Assembly: GCF_006476065.1 (NCBI RefSeq)
Contig: NZ_ML636798.1
Location: 310,001 to 374,000 of the forward strand
Reading direction: 5' to 3'
Source: Cognatiluteimonas lumbrici
GTDB taxonomy: Bacteria; Pseudomonadota; Gammaproteobacteria; Xanthomonadales; Xanthomonadaceae
DNA: 64,000 bases
The notes below the pieces were generated by a model. The model searched no databases, was not told the origin of the DNA, and saw nothing but the letters and a program-made list of their open reading frames with translations. How positions within the stretch are numbered: position 1 is the first letter of the stretch; each line of letters starts with the position of its first letter. Positions 34,340 through 61,302 of the stretch are shown one piece after another. The position numbers and the translations under genes are program-made.

Positions 34340-34422
34340 GCCACAGATTTCACAGATTCAAAAGGATCAAAAAACATAAAAACCTCTGTGTAAATCGTTT
34401 TGAAATCTGTGCAATCTGTGGC
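34340..34422. mobile_element. MITE-like inverted-repeat element without a gene (copy A)
   Basis: Terminal arms GCCACAGATTTCACAGATT (34340-34358) and its complement (34404-34422) differ at one of 19 positions. The similarity continues inward (CAAAAGGAT against CAAAACGAT) to about 28 bp. The AT-rich core of roughly 25-30 bp has no coding capacity. The arms match those around the GxxExxY gene at 48010-48465. It lies between mtnD and mtnC, leaving only about 27 nt of other intergenic sequence. Confidence 0.75.
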
Positions 34423-45989: not shown

Positions 45990-48002
45990 TCAAGCCTCCA
46001 GCTCCAGCAGCACGGTGTCGGCCTCGACGAACTCGCCGGCGCTGGCGGTGACGGCCGCGACCTTGCCGTCGCGCGGCGCCTTGAGCGCCAGCTCCATCTT
46101 CATCGCCTCGATCACCAGCAGTTCCTGTCCCGCCACGACGTTGTCCCCCCGTGCGGCCCGGACCACGACCACGCGTCCCGGCATCGGCGCGCGCAGCTTG
46201 TCGTCCTGTACCGACGACGTGTCGCTGTCCCGACGATACACCTCCACCGGAACCAGCGGCAGGCGGCGCTCGCCGTCGTGCAGCACCAGGCTGCCGGGCG
46301 CGTGCAGCACGCGGTAGCTGGCGGCGGCGCCGTCGAAGCGGGCGCTCAGGACGCCATCGTGCAGGAATGCGCCGTCAACTTCCACGATCGCGCCTTCTTC
46401 CGGTGCCATCGGCTGGATGCTGTAGCGGCCGCCGTGGCCGTGGGCCACGAGGTCCAGGCGCCGGCTGCGATGCAGGAAGCCGAGCAGGCGCTTGCCCGCA
46501 TGCCCCAACCGCCAGCCGTCCGCCAGCGCCCACGGCGATCCCGGATCGCCGGAGGCCGCGGCGCGGCGCGCGGCCGCCTGTTCCTGCAGCAGCATCCGCG
46601 CGGTCGCCGCCGCGACCAGCAGCGCGGGCGCGATCGGCGCGTCGGGATCGGGCAGGAACTCGTCCAGGTGGCGGTCGAGGTAACCGGTGTCGATCCGCGC
46701 CTCGACCACCGCGGGATGCCGCACCAGCCGCTCGAGGAAGGCGATGTTCGACTTCGGCCCCGCGACTTCGCACTGCGCCAGCGCCTCGCGCAGGCGCGCC
46801 AGTGCCCGCGCGCGGTCGGCGTCGTGCACGATCAGCTTGGCGATCATCGGGTCGTAGAAGATGGTGACCGTGTCGCCCTCGACCACGCCCGAGTCCACCC
46901 GCACGTGCGCCGACGCCGCCGGCAGCCGCAGCCGTTCCAGCTTGCCGGAACCGGGGAGGAAGCCGGCTTCCGGATCCTCCGCGTACAGCCGCACCTCGAT
47001 CGCGTGGCCGCGCTGCGGAATGTCCTCCTGCGCCAGCGGCAGCGGGGCGCCGGCCGCGACCCGCAGCTGCCACTCGACCAGGTCGAGCCCGGTGGTCATC
47101 TCGGTGACCGGGTGCTCCACCTGCAGCCGGGTGTTGATCTCCATGAAGAAGAACTCGCCCGACGGTGCGACGATGAATTCCACCGTGCCCGCGTTCGCGT
47201 AGTCGATCGCGCGCGCGGCCTGGACCGCGGCCGCTCCCATCGCCGCGCGCAGCTCCGGCGTCACGAACGGAGAGGGCGCTTCCTCCAGCACCTTCTGGTA
47301 GCGCCGCTGCGCCGAGCACTCGCGCTCATTGAGATGGATGACGTTGCCGTGGGCGTCGCCGAACACCTGGATCTCGATGTGGCGCGGGGACTCGACGTAG
47401 CGTTCGAGCAGCACGCGGTCGCGGCCGAAGGCGTTGGCGGCCTCGCGCTGGCAGCTCTCCAGCGCCGAGGCGAACTCGCCCGCTTCGCGCACGATGCGCA
47501 TACCCTTGCCGCCGCCGCCGTGCGCAGCCTTGATCATCAGCGGATACCCGATCCGATCGGCCTCGCGCCGGAGCAGGTCGGGCGACTGGTCCTCGCCGGT
47601 ATAGCCCGGCACCACCGGCACCCCGGCCGCCGCCATCAACTCCTTGGCACCGGCCTTGCTGCCCATCTTCCGCATCGAGGCCGCCTTGGGCCCGATGAAC
47701 ACCAGGCCGGCGGCCTCGACCGCGTCGGCGAAGTCCGCGTTCTCCGACAGGAACCCGTAGCCCGGATGGATCGCCTGCGCGCCCGAGGCCAACGCCGCCG
47801 CGATGATCGCGTCCCCGCGCAGGTACGACTCCTGCGGCCGCGGCCCGCCGACCGGATACGCCTCGTCCGCCAGCCGCACGTGCTGCGCATCCCGGTCCGC
47901 CTCCGAGAACACCGCCACCGTCCGCACCCCCAACCGCCGCGCCGTCCGGATCACCCGGCAAGCGATCTCCCCGCGGTTGGCAATCAGGATCTTCTCGAAC
48001 AT
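45990..48002 (-). CDS. liuD: Methylcrotonyl-CoA carboxylase biotin-containing alpha subunit
   Basis: 670 aa: biotin carboxylase domain, linker and C-terminal biotinyl domain. FEKILIANRGEIACRVIRTARRLG opens it, then KAAHGGGGKGMR (ATP loop), EINTRLQVEHPVTE, and the biotin site EAMKMEL. It forms the 3-methylcrotonyl-CoA carboxylase with the beta subunit at 54333-55943. The ATG at 48002 is chosen by family alignment; the upstream frame runs through the inverted-repeat element. Its ATG is only 7 nt from the left end of that element. Confidence 0.93.
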   Translation of the reverse strand: MFEKILIANRGEIACRVIRTARRLGVRTVAVFSEADRDAQHVRLADEAYPVGGPRPQESYLRGDAIIAAALASGAQAIHPGYGFLSENADFADAVEAAGLVFIGPKAASMRKMGSKAGAKELMAAAGVPVVPGYTGEDQSPDLLRREADRIGYPLMIKAAHGGGGKGMRIVREAGEFASALESCQREAANAFGRDRVLLERYVESPRHIEIQVFGDAHGNVIHLNERECSAQRRYQKVLEEAPSPFVTPELRAAMGAAAVQAARAIDYANAGTVEFIVAPSGEFFFMEINTRLQVEHPVTEMTTGLDLVEWQLRVAAGAPLPLAQEDIPQRGHAIEVRLYAEDPEAGFLPGSGKLERLRLPAASAHVRVDSGVVEGDTVTIFYDPMIAKLIVHDADRARALARLREALAQCEVAGPKSNIAFLERLVRHPAVVEARIDTGYLDRHLDEFLPDPDAPIAPALLVAAATARMLLQEQAAARRAAASGDPGSPWALADGWRLGHAGKRLLGFLHRSRRLDLVAHGHGGRYSIQPMAPEEGAIVEVDGAFLHDGVLSARFDGAAASYRVLHAPGSLVLHDGERRLPLVPVEVYRRDSDTSSVQDDKLRAPMPGRVVVVRAARGDNVVAGQELLVIEAMKMELALKAPRDGKVAAVTASAGEFVEADTVLLELEA

Positions 48003-48009
48003 TCTTTTG

Positions 48010-48041
48010 GCCACAGATTTCACAGATAAAAAAGGATTTGG
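48010..48041 (+). repeat. Left terminal inverted repeat of the GxxExxY element
   Basis: GCCACAGATTTCACAGAT followed by AAAAAAGGATTTGG. The GxxExxY stop codon lies 5 nt further in. Confidence 0.85.
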
Positions 48042-48045
48042 CTCG

Positions 48046-48426
48046 TCAGTAGATGCGGCGTCGCACTTGGGCCTTGGGGCCAAAGTTCAGGAGAAGGCCC
48101 AAAGGGATATTCGTGGCTTTCAGGTAGTTCAGAAGCTGGGCATCATGGGCAGGGAGAAGGTGCTCCACGGCTTTGATCTCCACGATCACTTTACCTTCCA
48201 CCAGGAAGTCTGCCCTGAAGATGCCGACGCATTTTCCCTTGAAGCGCACTTCCAGGCTGGCTTGGCGCACGAAGCCAATTCCCTGGGCTTCCATCTCCAG
48301 TGCCAGGGCATTTTCGTAGACCCCTTCCAGGAAGCCATGCCCCAGCAGGTTATAGGTCTCGTAGAACGCACCAATGATCCGGCGGGTCAACGCGGCTTCG
48401 ATGTACCGGCGTGAGTTCGCATCCAT
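48046..48426 (-). CDS. GxxExxY protein (PD-(D/E)xK nuclease-like)
   Basis: 126 aa. It carries the naming motif Gly31-x-x-Glu34-x-x-Tyr37 (GFLEGVYENAL) and, after it, a PD-(D/E)xK-like core: Asp73 in RADFLVEGK and Glu83-x-Lys85 in VIVEIKAVEHL. The family is grouped with the PDDEXK_3 fold, but no function is established to my knowledge. The start is the ATG at 48426; AAGGA about 10 nt upstream comes from the element's right inverted repeat, so the repeat itself supplies the ribosome site. It is the only gene between the two ends of the 456-bp element. Confidence 0.88.
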   Translation of the reverse strand: MDANSRRYIEAALTRRIIGAFYETYNLLGHGFLEGVYENALALEMEAQGIGFVRQASLEVRFKGKCVGIFRADFLVEGKVIVEIKAVEHLLPAHDAQLLNYLKATNIPLGLLLNFGPKAQVRRRIY

Positions 48427-48433
48427 GCGCACC

Positions 48434-48465
48434 CAATCCTTTTTTTCATCTGTGAAATCTGTGGC
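48434..48465 (-). repeat. Right terminal inverted repeat of the GxxExxY element
   Basis: Read on the minus strand from 48465 inward it is GCCACAGATTTCACAGAT, then GAAAAAAAGGATTGG. The first 18 bp are identical to the left end. Confidence 0.85.
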
Positions 48466-48476
48466 TAAAAAATGCC

Positions 48477-49259
48477 TTACCCCACCCACGAAGGTTTGCG
48501 TTTTTCGAGGAAGGCGGTGATGCCTTCCTGGCCTTCGGGGGAGACGCGGAGGCGGGCGATGAGGTCGGCGTTGGCGGCGTCGATGGCGACCGGGCCGGAG
48601 GCGTGGGCGACGTTGCGGACCAGGGCCTTGGCCGCGGCGGCCGCGACCGGGCCGGCTTTCAGCAGCAGGTCGACCTGGCGCTGCACGGCGGCGTCCAGCG
48701 CGTCCGCCTCCACCACCTCGTGCAGCAGGCCGATGCGGTGCGCCTCGGCGGCGTCGAAGACCTCGGCGCTGGCGAAGTAGCGGCGCGCGTTGCGGCTGCC
48801 GATGGCGGCGACGACGTAGGGCGAGATCACCGCCGGCAGCAGGCCTAGCCGGCTCTCGGTGAGCCCGAACTTCGCCGCGGGCACGCCGATGGCGATGTCG
48901 CAGGCGGCGACCAGGCCGACGCCGCCGCCGAACGCGGCGCCGTGGACGCGGGCGATGGTCGGCTTCGGCAGTTCGTCCAGGGTGCGCAGCAGGCGGGCGA
49001 GGGCGAGGGCGTCCTCGCGGTTGGCGTCCTCGCTGGCCGCGGCCATGCCGCGCATCCAGTTCAGGTCGGCGCCGGCCGAGAACGAGGCGCCGGCGCCCTC
49101 CAGCACCACCACGCGCACCGCGGCATCGGTGGCCAGCCCCTCGAGCGTGCGGGTCAGGGCCGCGACCAGGGCGTCGTCGAAGGCGTTGTGCAGTTCCGGG
49201 CGCTCCAGGCGCAGGCGGGCGACGGCGCCGTCCCGGGTCAACCGCATGGGTTCGCTCAC
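48477..49259 (-). CDS. liuC: Methylglutaconyl-CoA hydratase (enoyl-CoA hydratase family)
   Basis: 260-aa crotonase-fold hydratase. The oxyanion-hole segments are ASFSAGADLNWM and HGAAFGGGVGLVAACDIAI. The C-terminal SPEGQEGITAFLEKRKPSW is typical. The GTG at 49259 has AGGAG 7 nt upstream and gives SEPMRLTRDG; an ATG at 49247 is the alternative. The context (methylcrotonyl-CoA carboxylase, HMG-CoA lyase) indicates the methylglutaconyl-CoA step of leucine breakdown. Confidence 0.9.
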   Translation of the reverse strand: MSEPMRLTRDGAVARLRLERPELHNAFDDALVAALTRTLEGLATDAAVRVVVLEGAGASFSAGADLNWMRGMAAASEDANREDALALARLLRTLDELPKPTIARVHGAAFGGGVGLVAACDIAIGVPAAKFGLTESRLGLLPAVISPYVVAAIGSRNARRYFASAEVFDAAEAHRIGLLHEVVEADALDAAVQRQVDLLLKAGPVAAAAAKALVRNVAHASGPVAIDAANADLIARLRVSPEGQEGITAFLEKRKPSWVG

Positions 49260-49333
49260 GCCTCGGCTCCTGCTGCTGGATGGCGCTCCATGATACCGGC
49301 GGGCACCGCGCGCCCGGCCTGGCCTTGCCGGAA

Positions 49334-61208: not shown

Positions 61209-61302
61209 GCCACAGATTTCACTGATTTGAAAACGATCTGCACGAGATCTTTTTATACAAAAAATCCGCTGTGATCCTTTTCCAATCTGTGGGATCTGTG
61301 GC
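61209..61302. mobile_element. MITE-like inverted-repeat element without a gene (copy C)
   Basis: Arms GCCACAGATTTCACTGATT (61209-61227) and the complement of 61284-61302 (GCCACAGATCCCACAGATT) agree at 16 of 19 positions. Inward they continue GAAAACGATC against GAAAAGGATC. The 94-bp element has no gene and lies between the convergent autotransporter (ending 61198) and the isovaleryl-CoA dehydrogenase gene, whose TAG starts at the element's last base. Confidence 0.7.

Follow-up and report, generated by a model that had tools for sequence, protein, structure and literature searches.

A single-copy GxxExxY nuclease-like gene and dispersed palindromes with the same short-unit arms in Cognatiluteimonas lumbrici

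The 2.36-Mb genome of Cognatiluteimonas lumbrici (G000) carries one gene of the GxxExxY family, encoding a protein of the PD-(D/E)XK nuclease fold and flanked on both sides by inverted arrays whose building blocks are short direct units, and the same arrays bound gene-less palindromes elsewhere in that genome. We favour, as slightly better than an even bet, the reading that gene and palindromes form a two-part system that works like REPIN-RAYT, with a RecB/Cas4-type nuclease replacing the HUH transposase. The stretch of DNA analysed, referred to as the window, is 64,000 nucleotides long and corresponds to C1:310001-374000. An earlier note on the window had described the gene and its terminal repeats; the unit arrays, the 22 dispersed gene-less copies, the co-variation of unit letters with the protein and the single-copy state of the gene go beyond it. 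The element and its neighbours are the following.

45990..48002, minus strand: methylcrotonyl-CoA carboxylase alpha subunit (MCC alpha, gene mccA), downstream neighbour, given as context
48005..48041, plus strand: left inverted arm, with a T-rich lead, CACAGAT units at 48012-48018 and 48021-48027, then AAAGGAT as third unit
48046..48426, minus strand: GxxExxY protein, 126 aa, RecB/Cas4/lambda-exonuclease-like PD-(D/E)XK fold
48432..48470, minus strand: right inverted arm, with units at 48457-48463 and 48448-48454 plus a third unit; AAGGA ribosome site at 48437-48441
48477..49295, minus strand: enoyl-CoA hydratase, upstream neighbour, given as context; start provisional

The earlier note had read the ends as a perfect inverted repeat (18 of 18) with near-identity beyond it, and both statements hold. 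The core, GCCACAGATTTCACAGAT, occupies 48010-48027 on the plus strand and 48448-48465 on the minus strand; around it the arms are 93% complementary over 29 nt (48005-48033 and 48442-48470), and the match resumes after a one-base shift for a further 14 nt (48028-48041 and 48432-48445, 93%). Each arm follows the pattern CACAGAT-TT-CACAGAT, the two arms being inverted around the gene, which is the only one inside, as had been said. The AAGGA that had been assigned to the right repeat lies on the minus strand within the third unit AAAGGAT of that arm, 10 nt ahead of the ATG, and because this unit doubles as the ribosome site of the GxxExxY gene, self-control would be possible. Given that the third neighbour is an HMG-CoA-lyase-like protein, besides MCC alpha and the enoyl-CoA hydratase, the operon looks like one for leucine degradation, in agreement with the leucine operon proposed earlier. 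A comparison of the window element with Rfam returned nothing above threshold, with a single chance-level match.

The 18-mer has 46 matches in G000 at up to two mismatches and its reversed control has none, which excludes chance and led us to reject a mere two-copy coincidence. In the stretches of G000 that were fetched, these matches resolve into 22 gene-less inverted pairs of 83-148 bp, besides which there are the pair around the gene and a single unpaired arm. Two of the gene-less palindromes, both of CACAGAT type, fall within the window.

34340..34422 (C1:344340-344422), no strand assigned: 83 bp between 18-mer ends
61209..61302 (C1:371209-371302), no strand assigned: 94 bp

The arms share the layout GC-CACAGAT-NN-CACAGAT followed by an AAAGGAT-like third unit. 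Since the pattern by which arms were collected tolerated mismatches anywhere, the placement of deviations is informative and overall arm identity is not: of 36 deviations counted across the 22 gene-less elements (44 arms), 30 affect the 2-nt spacer, and the left spacer equals the right one in 5 of 22 elements (shuffled mean 5.0). Between elements, likeness is 95% and 93% for the arms and 46% for the interiors, where shuffled sequences give 44%. Deviations that lie mostly in the spacer and are unmatched between arms, together with near-shuffled interiors, suggest that the unit is recognised by sequence. Hairpin pairing as the conserved trait is unsupported in the spacer. Three elements folded as single-stranded DNA were far more stable than their shuffles (z -7.8 to -12.9).

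The setting of the palindromes would also fit functional sites that selection keeps behind genes, such as two-way terminators or chromosome landmarks, with the nuclease as a host reader and nothing mobile. When gene orientation was assigned by a codon-composition rule instead of a gene finder, 15 of the 23 elements in G000 lay between convergent genes, eight between tandem genes (one of these beside a poor coding signal) and none between divergent ones; a stop codon stood no more than 17 nt from an end in all 23, and the one gene-less element scanned gave a terminator score on both strands. However, the same scan found no terminator-like site in the gene-bearing element, the interiors, and hence the terminator stems, are unconserved in sequence, and avoidance of promoters and reading frames would account for the positions as well.

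The occupancy of 12 other G000 sites in congeners bears on the same reading from both sides. Of the 11 sites readable in G003, 8 hold an element, though of the different CRCGGAT type, as host-serving sites would have it; E9 carries a GGGAAT palindrome, and E5 and E10 are empty. By contrast, G002 has an element at E11 and lacks one at the other 9 of its 10 readable sites. In G006, 6 of 9 readable sites are filled (five by CRCGGAT-type elements and E8 by a full CACAGAT-type one), E9 holds a GGGAAT-like palindrome, and E3 and E10 are empty. On balance we regard the host-serving reading as unlikely. Element places are common to genomes while the type often differs, reflecting either repeated hits on the same gene ends or ancestral elements that were rewritten. 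Target-site duplications are unreadable at these sites, where the empty versions have diverged and the insertion edges are illegible.

Palindromes of other kinds were seen at some of the same places. At E9 the GGGAAT-unit palindrome that stands in G003 and G006 (loci L184 and L191), where G000 has a CACAGAT element, lies beside a highly conserved stretch that resembles the end of an RNase P RNA. In G001, loci L207 and L208 carry REP-like GC palindromes at sites with CACAGAT elements in G000, that of L208 being of the GGAGCGGCTTCAGCCGCGAGC type. It seems that palindromes of various kinds accumulate at gene ends.

The junction between mccA and the hydratase gene was seen in 7 of the 9 genomes of the genus, with G007 and G008 outside the comparison. 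It is filled by a GxxExxY element in G000, G002, G003 and G006, holds 977 nt of other sequence in G004, and is empty in G001 and G005, where 34 nt separate the aligned flanks. The 18-nt gap that the earlier note expected of the operon is therefore not that of the empty junction but the remainder around the 18-mers. The gene stands at this junction in another genus too (G021), and three order-level junctions measure 43 nt (G036), 41 nt (G038) and 668 nt of other sequence (G037). Five species from two genera thus have the gene at the same locus, and this, combined with its single copy in G000, makes it look closer to a domesticated partner than to a selfish unit on the move. Of the minimal mobile or selfish unit proposed earlier, one part stands: a nuclease-like gene with its inverted repeats behaves as a unit whose orthologous site is empty in G001 and G005. 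The mobile part fares less well, in that the gene, with its one copy in G000, keeps to one locus in these five species, no transposition was seen and no target-site duplication can be read. A gene kept in all relatives between diverged flanks, which would have counted against that proposal, is not what we found, some relatives being without the gene at this site.

Between G000 and the other three filled congeners, the flanking proteins are 81-91% identical and the GxxExxY proteins 55-65%. In 9 of 10 pairs the dN/dS of GxxExxY lies between 0.13 and 0.31, a rough estimate because silent sites are saturated; by these measures the protein is fast-evolving or replaced, yet under purifying selection. 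Gene-bearing copies at new sites were looked for and rejected, since close pairs mostly have common flanks and are thus vertical; the Acidobacteria pair L102/L106 has DNA in common roughly over the element only. Separately, in L078 (2882-4372) the outer ~220 bp of the element recur several more times near the gene-bearing copy, as found by blastn against L075.

The family assignment made from the letters was borne out by profile searches: the window protein matches TIGR04256 (GxxExxY) with an E-value of 4.9e-40 and 136.5 bits against a curated cut-off of 35, and PF13366 (PDDEXK_3) with 3.1e-40. Among 47 aligned GxxExxY proteins E34, D73, E83, K85, Q97, Y101, N114 and R123 are invariant, and the D, ExK and QxxxY residues of the RecB/Cas4/lambda-exonuclease branch are present in all 47; QxxxY presumably links the family to that branch of PD-(D/E)XK. 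The folds nearest to an AlphaFold2 model of the window protein (pLDDT 95, mixed helix and strand) are those of SSO0001, which we take to be a Cas4, of LHK-Exo, of lambda exonuclease and of MGME1, with E-values from 2e-4 to 3e-3 and a TM score by query of ~0.5. A search by sequence for solved relatives gave no convincing match. Given the invariant catalytic residues and the Cas4/lambda-exonuclease-like fold of the model, the natural inference is that GxxExxY is an active end- or strand-processing nuclease. Membership of a defence system was rejected, the window protein having no PADLOC match and the marginal Cas4 HMM matches falling on 3 of 5 scanned proteins but not on this one. Cargo of phages or plasmids was rejected as well: with the window protein as query there was no match among 50,697 phage records, and the 8 plasmid records matched, out of 72,556, are without exception predicted to be non-mobilizable.

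That such repeats occur near GxxExxY genes in other bacteria had been suggested in the earlier note, and it proved to be the case. We collected 70 loci of the family, 57 from a scan of a contig collection and 13 from 60 relatives, the window's own included (L071 being the same as L043); 11 of the 60 relatives have GxxExxY genes. The sources comprise Lysobacteraceae, Planctomycetota, Chloroflexota, Nitrospira, Desulfo-groups, Acidobacteria, Bacteroidota, Verrucomicrobia and others. For each locus the best inverted match between the 250-nt flanks was scored, with 488 placements elsewhere in the same loci as controls. The score was at least 18 at 44 of 70 loci against 2 of 488 controls, and at least 14 at 55 against 11; arms at a score of 12 were absent at 12 of the 70. 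Seven of these 12 lie outside a sub-group of long relatives (L120, L121, L122, L125 and L126; 239-256 aa from the match start), which has neither the full motif nor arms. The flanks of the armless long PDDEXK_3 genes of Verrucomicrobia at L121, L122, L125 and L126 do repeat other 7-mers, namely GTCAGGA, TCCTGCC and TTCCTAC. Most arms are again arrays, and their general unit is CRCNRAK, mostly pointing inward and occurring as CACAGAT, CACGGAT, CGCGGAT, CGCAGAT, CGCTGAT, CGCAAAG, CACTAAT and others; L082, L092, L110 and L117 have units of another kind.

The comparison of unit letters with protein similarity kept 48 loci; the other 22 were dropped for weak arms, fewer than two CRCNRAK units, an internal stop, a length below 90 aa, or duplication (L071). 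Between loci of different phyla, as labelled from record titles, protein distance and unit distance correlate with r 0.518 (n=951; permuted maximum 0.212 in 2000), and a repeat with Delta/Desulfo and Ignavi/Bactero labels merged gave r 0.512 (n=945; maximum 0.204, reached by 0 of 2000 permutations). Positions 5 and 7 of the unit carry the signal (0 of 2000 permutations each), with a weak contribution from position 4 (32 of 2000) and none of significance from position 2 (135 of 2000). When labels are merged, the nearest protein of another phylum has a unit with the same last three letters for 42 of 48 loci (mean of permutations 19.8, highest 33 in 5000); the finer labels give 43 of 48. Because gene and arms are physically linked, part of this co-variation could come from their being inherited together as a block; the preservation of units between nearest other-phylum proteins that are only 44-70% identical speaks against linkage alone.

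Gene type and dispersed repeats also go together among relatives, to a degree. G000 and G002 have a CACAGAT-armed gene and 41 and 25 CACAGAT pairs, and G003 and G006 have a CGCGGAT-armed gene and 75 and 37 CRCGGAT pairs, whereas G001, G004 (76% complete), G005, G007 and G008 gave no GxxExxY match, no CACAGAT 18-mer and 1-5 CRCGGAT pairs; own-type dispersed repeats are thus present in 4 of 4 gene-bearing genomes of the genus and in none of the five gene-less ones. Beyond the genus, CTTTGCG pairs number 88 in G011, 38 in G043 and 18 in G044 and at most one in each of the other 57 relatives, and G011, G043 and G044 are the only ones of the 60 with CGCNAAG-armed genes. Such pairs had been predicted beforehand for G011 and G043, with G044 (arms CGCGAAG) held to be uncertain, and all three had them. 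G043 has three GxxExxY paralogues, one with CACAGAT and two with CGCAAAG arms, and both types are dispersed in it (63 and 38 pairs).

The association is not strict. Five relatives from the same bacterial family hold abundant CRCGGAT pairs with no GxxExxY match (G027 87, G034 38, G014 27, G030 25, G028 11); the repeats are nonetheless related to the genes, and the random occurrence that the earlier note had named as a refutation is not what we saw. Of five clusters in gene-less G034 (800 kb sampled) and G027 (400 kb sampled), a single pair was intact, a second had a degenerate partner and three lacked an opposing arm; this loss is perhaps decay, though the repeats persist without the gene. These CRCGGAT arms (L290, L294 and L307 in G027; L270 and L287 in G034) lie in some cases beside REP-like palindromes. 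CACAGAT pairs are also numerous in genomes brought in for other gene types (G086 219, G060 91, and many of a 42-genome panel likewise), where the gene type of a panel genome is that of the fetched gene and other GxxExxY genes lie outside the comparison. Types can be mixed: G006, with its CGCGGAT gene, holds four CACAGAT matches, one of them a full element at a site common with G000, and G003 and G006 both hold two sub-types, CGCGGAT and CACGGAT, with one gene match each. The own-unit match of G053 is weak (3 matches), and the own-unit count left out G041 and G051, whose unit is CGCAAAT.

Repeats without a gene match would be expected if another transposase or host recombination spread the palindromes and the nuclease gene were carried along as cargo or had been captured later by a pair of them. 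The lack of a transposition signature that would connect the nuclease with movement, and the matches to Y1 (RAYT-type, Y1_Tnp) transposases, one in G003 and two in G006, would fit as well; a RAYT may be involved in these two genomes. However, the unit type tracks the protein between phyla, the CTTTGCG repeats occur in no more than 3 of 60 genomes, those whose genes have such arms, and no Y1 transposase was found in G000 or G002. We rejected RAYT as the mover in G000 on this ground, the search there having been limited to the Y1 family. We consider it quite unlikely that the gene is a mere passenger.

Taken together, these results are best accommodated, in our view, by the two-part system. Its first part would be the single-copy nuclease gene between inverted arrays of direct units, and its second the gene-less palindromes, 22 of them in G000, that bear the same arrays close behind stop codons. 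The nuclease would read the CRCNRAK unit (CACAGAT in G000) by sequence, both in its own flanks and in the dispersed elements; such recognition is well supported, and binding suggested, by the co-variation of the unit letters with the protein. Its action would be in trans, the likeliest targets being hairpins of the dispersed elements, extruded or on the lagging strand; it would cut or process the hairpin or its ends, cleavage being suggested because of the catalytic residues. The elements might thereby be copied, converted, spread or maintained; that GxxExxY mobilises the palindromes we infer by analogy. With a change in protein specificity, the repeat population would change too.

A comparable plan is found around genes of an unrelated fold. 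Among 22 genomes chosen from those reached, 20 have genes of the S23/four-helix-bundle family (TIGR02436), and 25 of the best 30 S23 loci (L218-L247) were uncut; inverted arrays scoring at least 14 flank 18 of these 25 against 0 of 75 controls, with units of about 7 nt such as AGTGGAG, AGGTTTC and AGTTGAG. The same model gave no match in G000, where the built-in control was also silent. We put forward tentatively, as a generalisation that we would sooner bet against, a class of bacterial systems in which a small dedicated protein, either a RecB/Cas4-like nuclease or a four-helix bundle, owns genome-wide palindromes in its own short-unit code, and in which turnover of specificity rewrites the population at largely the same places. 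The case cited for rewriting in place is G000 (CACAGAT) against G003 (CRCGGAT) at the 8 of 11 readable sites.

The plan of a gene within inverted repeats, which is that of the Coxiella intervening sequence and of the S23-type genes of the genomes fetched, would also allow an element that acts at the RNA level, as in 23S rRNA, where RNase III cuts out the terminal stem and the protein is a byproduct. We hold this to be very improbable here: the element sits in a protein-coding operon and not in rRNA, its dispersed copies lie outside genes, and spacer changes are uncompensated between arms, so that pairing is not the conserved feature there.

In the literature searched, outside which most subscription journals lay, there was no report of these repeats and no described role for GxxExxY genes; six repeat strings and the term 'PDDEXK_3' were absent from it, and the part of PMC8934634 that mentions 'GxxExxY' does so incidentally. 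The partnership suggested here between a nuclease and dispersed palindromes is apparently undescribed. GxxExxY is found in many phyla, and since every such protein comes with a predicted recognition unit in its arms, its substrate is directly testable. The system also suggests that protein-owned dispersed palindromes would have arisen more than once, here with a nuclease replacing the transposase, and its loci provide a naturally occurring set of nuclease-site pairs from which DNA recognition could be learned.

Among known systems, REPIN-RAYT comes with a single-copy gene, two inverted repeats and a short, highly diverse spacer, and its repeats are commoner with the gene but present also without it, as set out in passages of PMC8049555. 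G000 is alike in its single-copy gene, its dispersed inverted doublets and their diverse spacer (G043 has three genes). It differs in that neither the element nor the genome has an HUH/Y1 transposase, the protein being PDDEXK_3, and in its arms: those of REPINs carry a GTAG motif, according to part of PMC8266576, whereas GxxExxY arms are arrays of 7-nt units without GTAG, and all 44 arms in G000 start with GCCACAG, which the collection pattern favours. MITEs are likewise short gene-less derivatives with ends like those of the gene-bearing copy, but the GxxExxY element has no transposase, the interiors are unrelated, and a target-site duplication is unreadable at the diverged empty sites. The 23S intervening sequence of Coxiella, sporadic and thought to be horizontally acquired, is a small ORF between terminal inverted repeats, as described in part of PMC4990558. 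GxxExxY shares this plan, and S23-type genes share the arrays of ~7-nt units, but its fold is unrelated (PDDEXK_3, no four-helix bundle), it lies outside rRNA and its arms recur in dispersed gene-less copies. With Cas4, lambda exonuclease and RecB it has the D, ExK and QxxxY residues and the fold in common, and it stands apart from them as a protein of 126 aa coupled to DNA repeats of its own.
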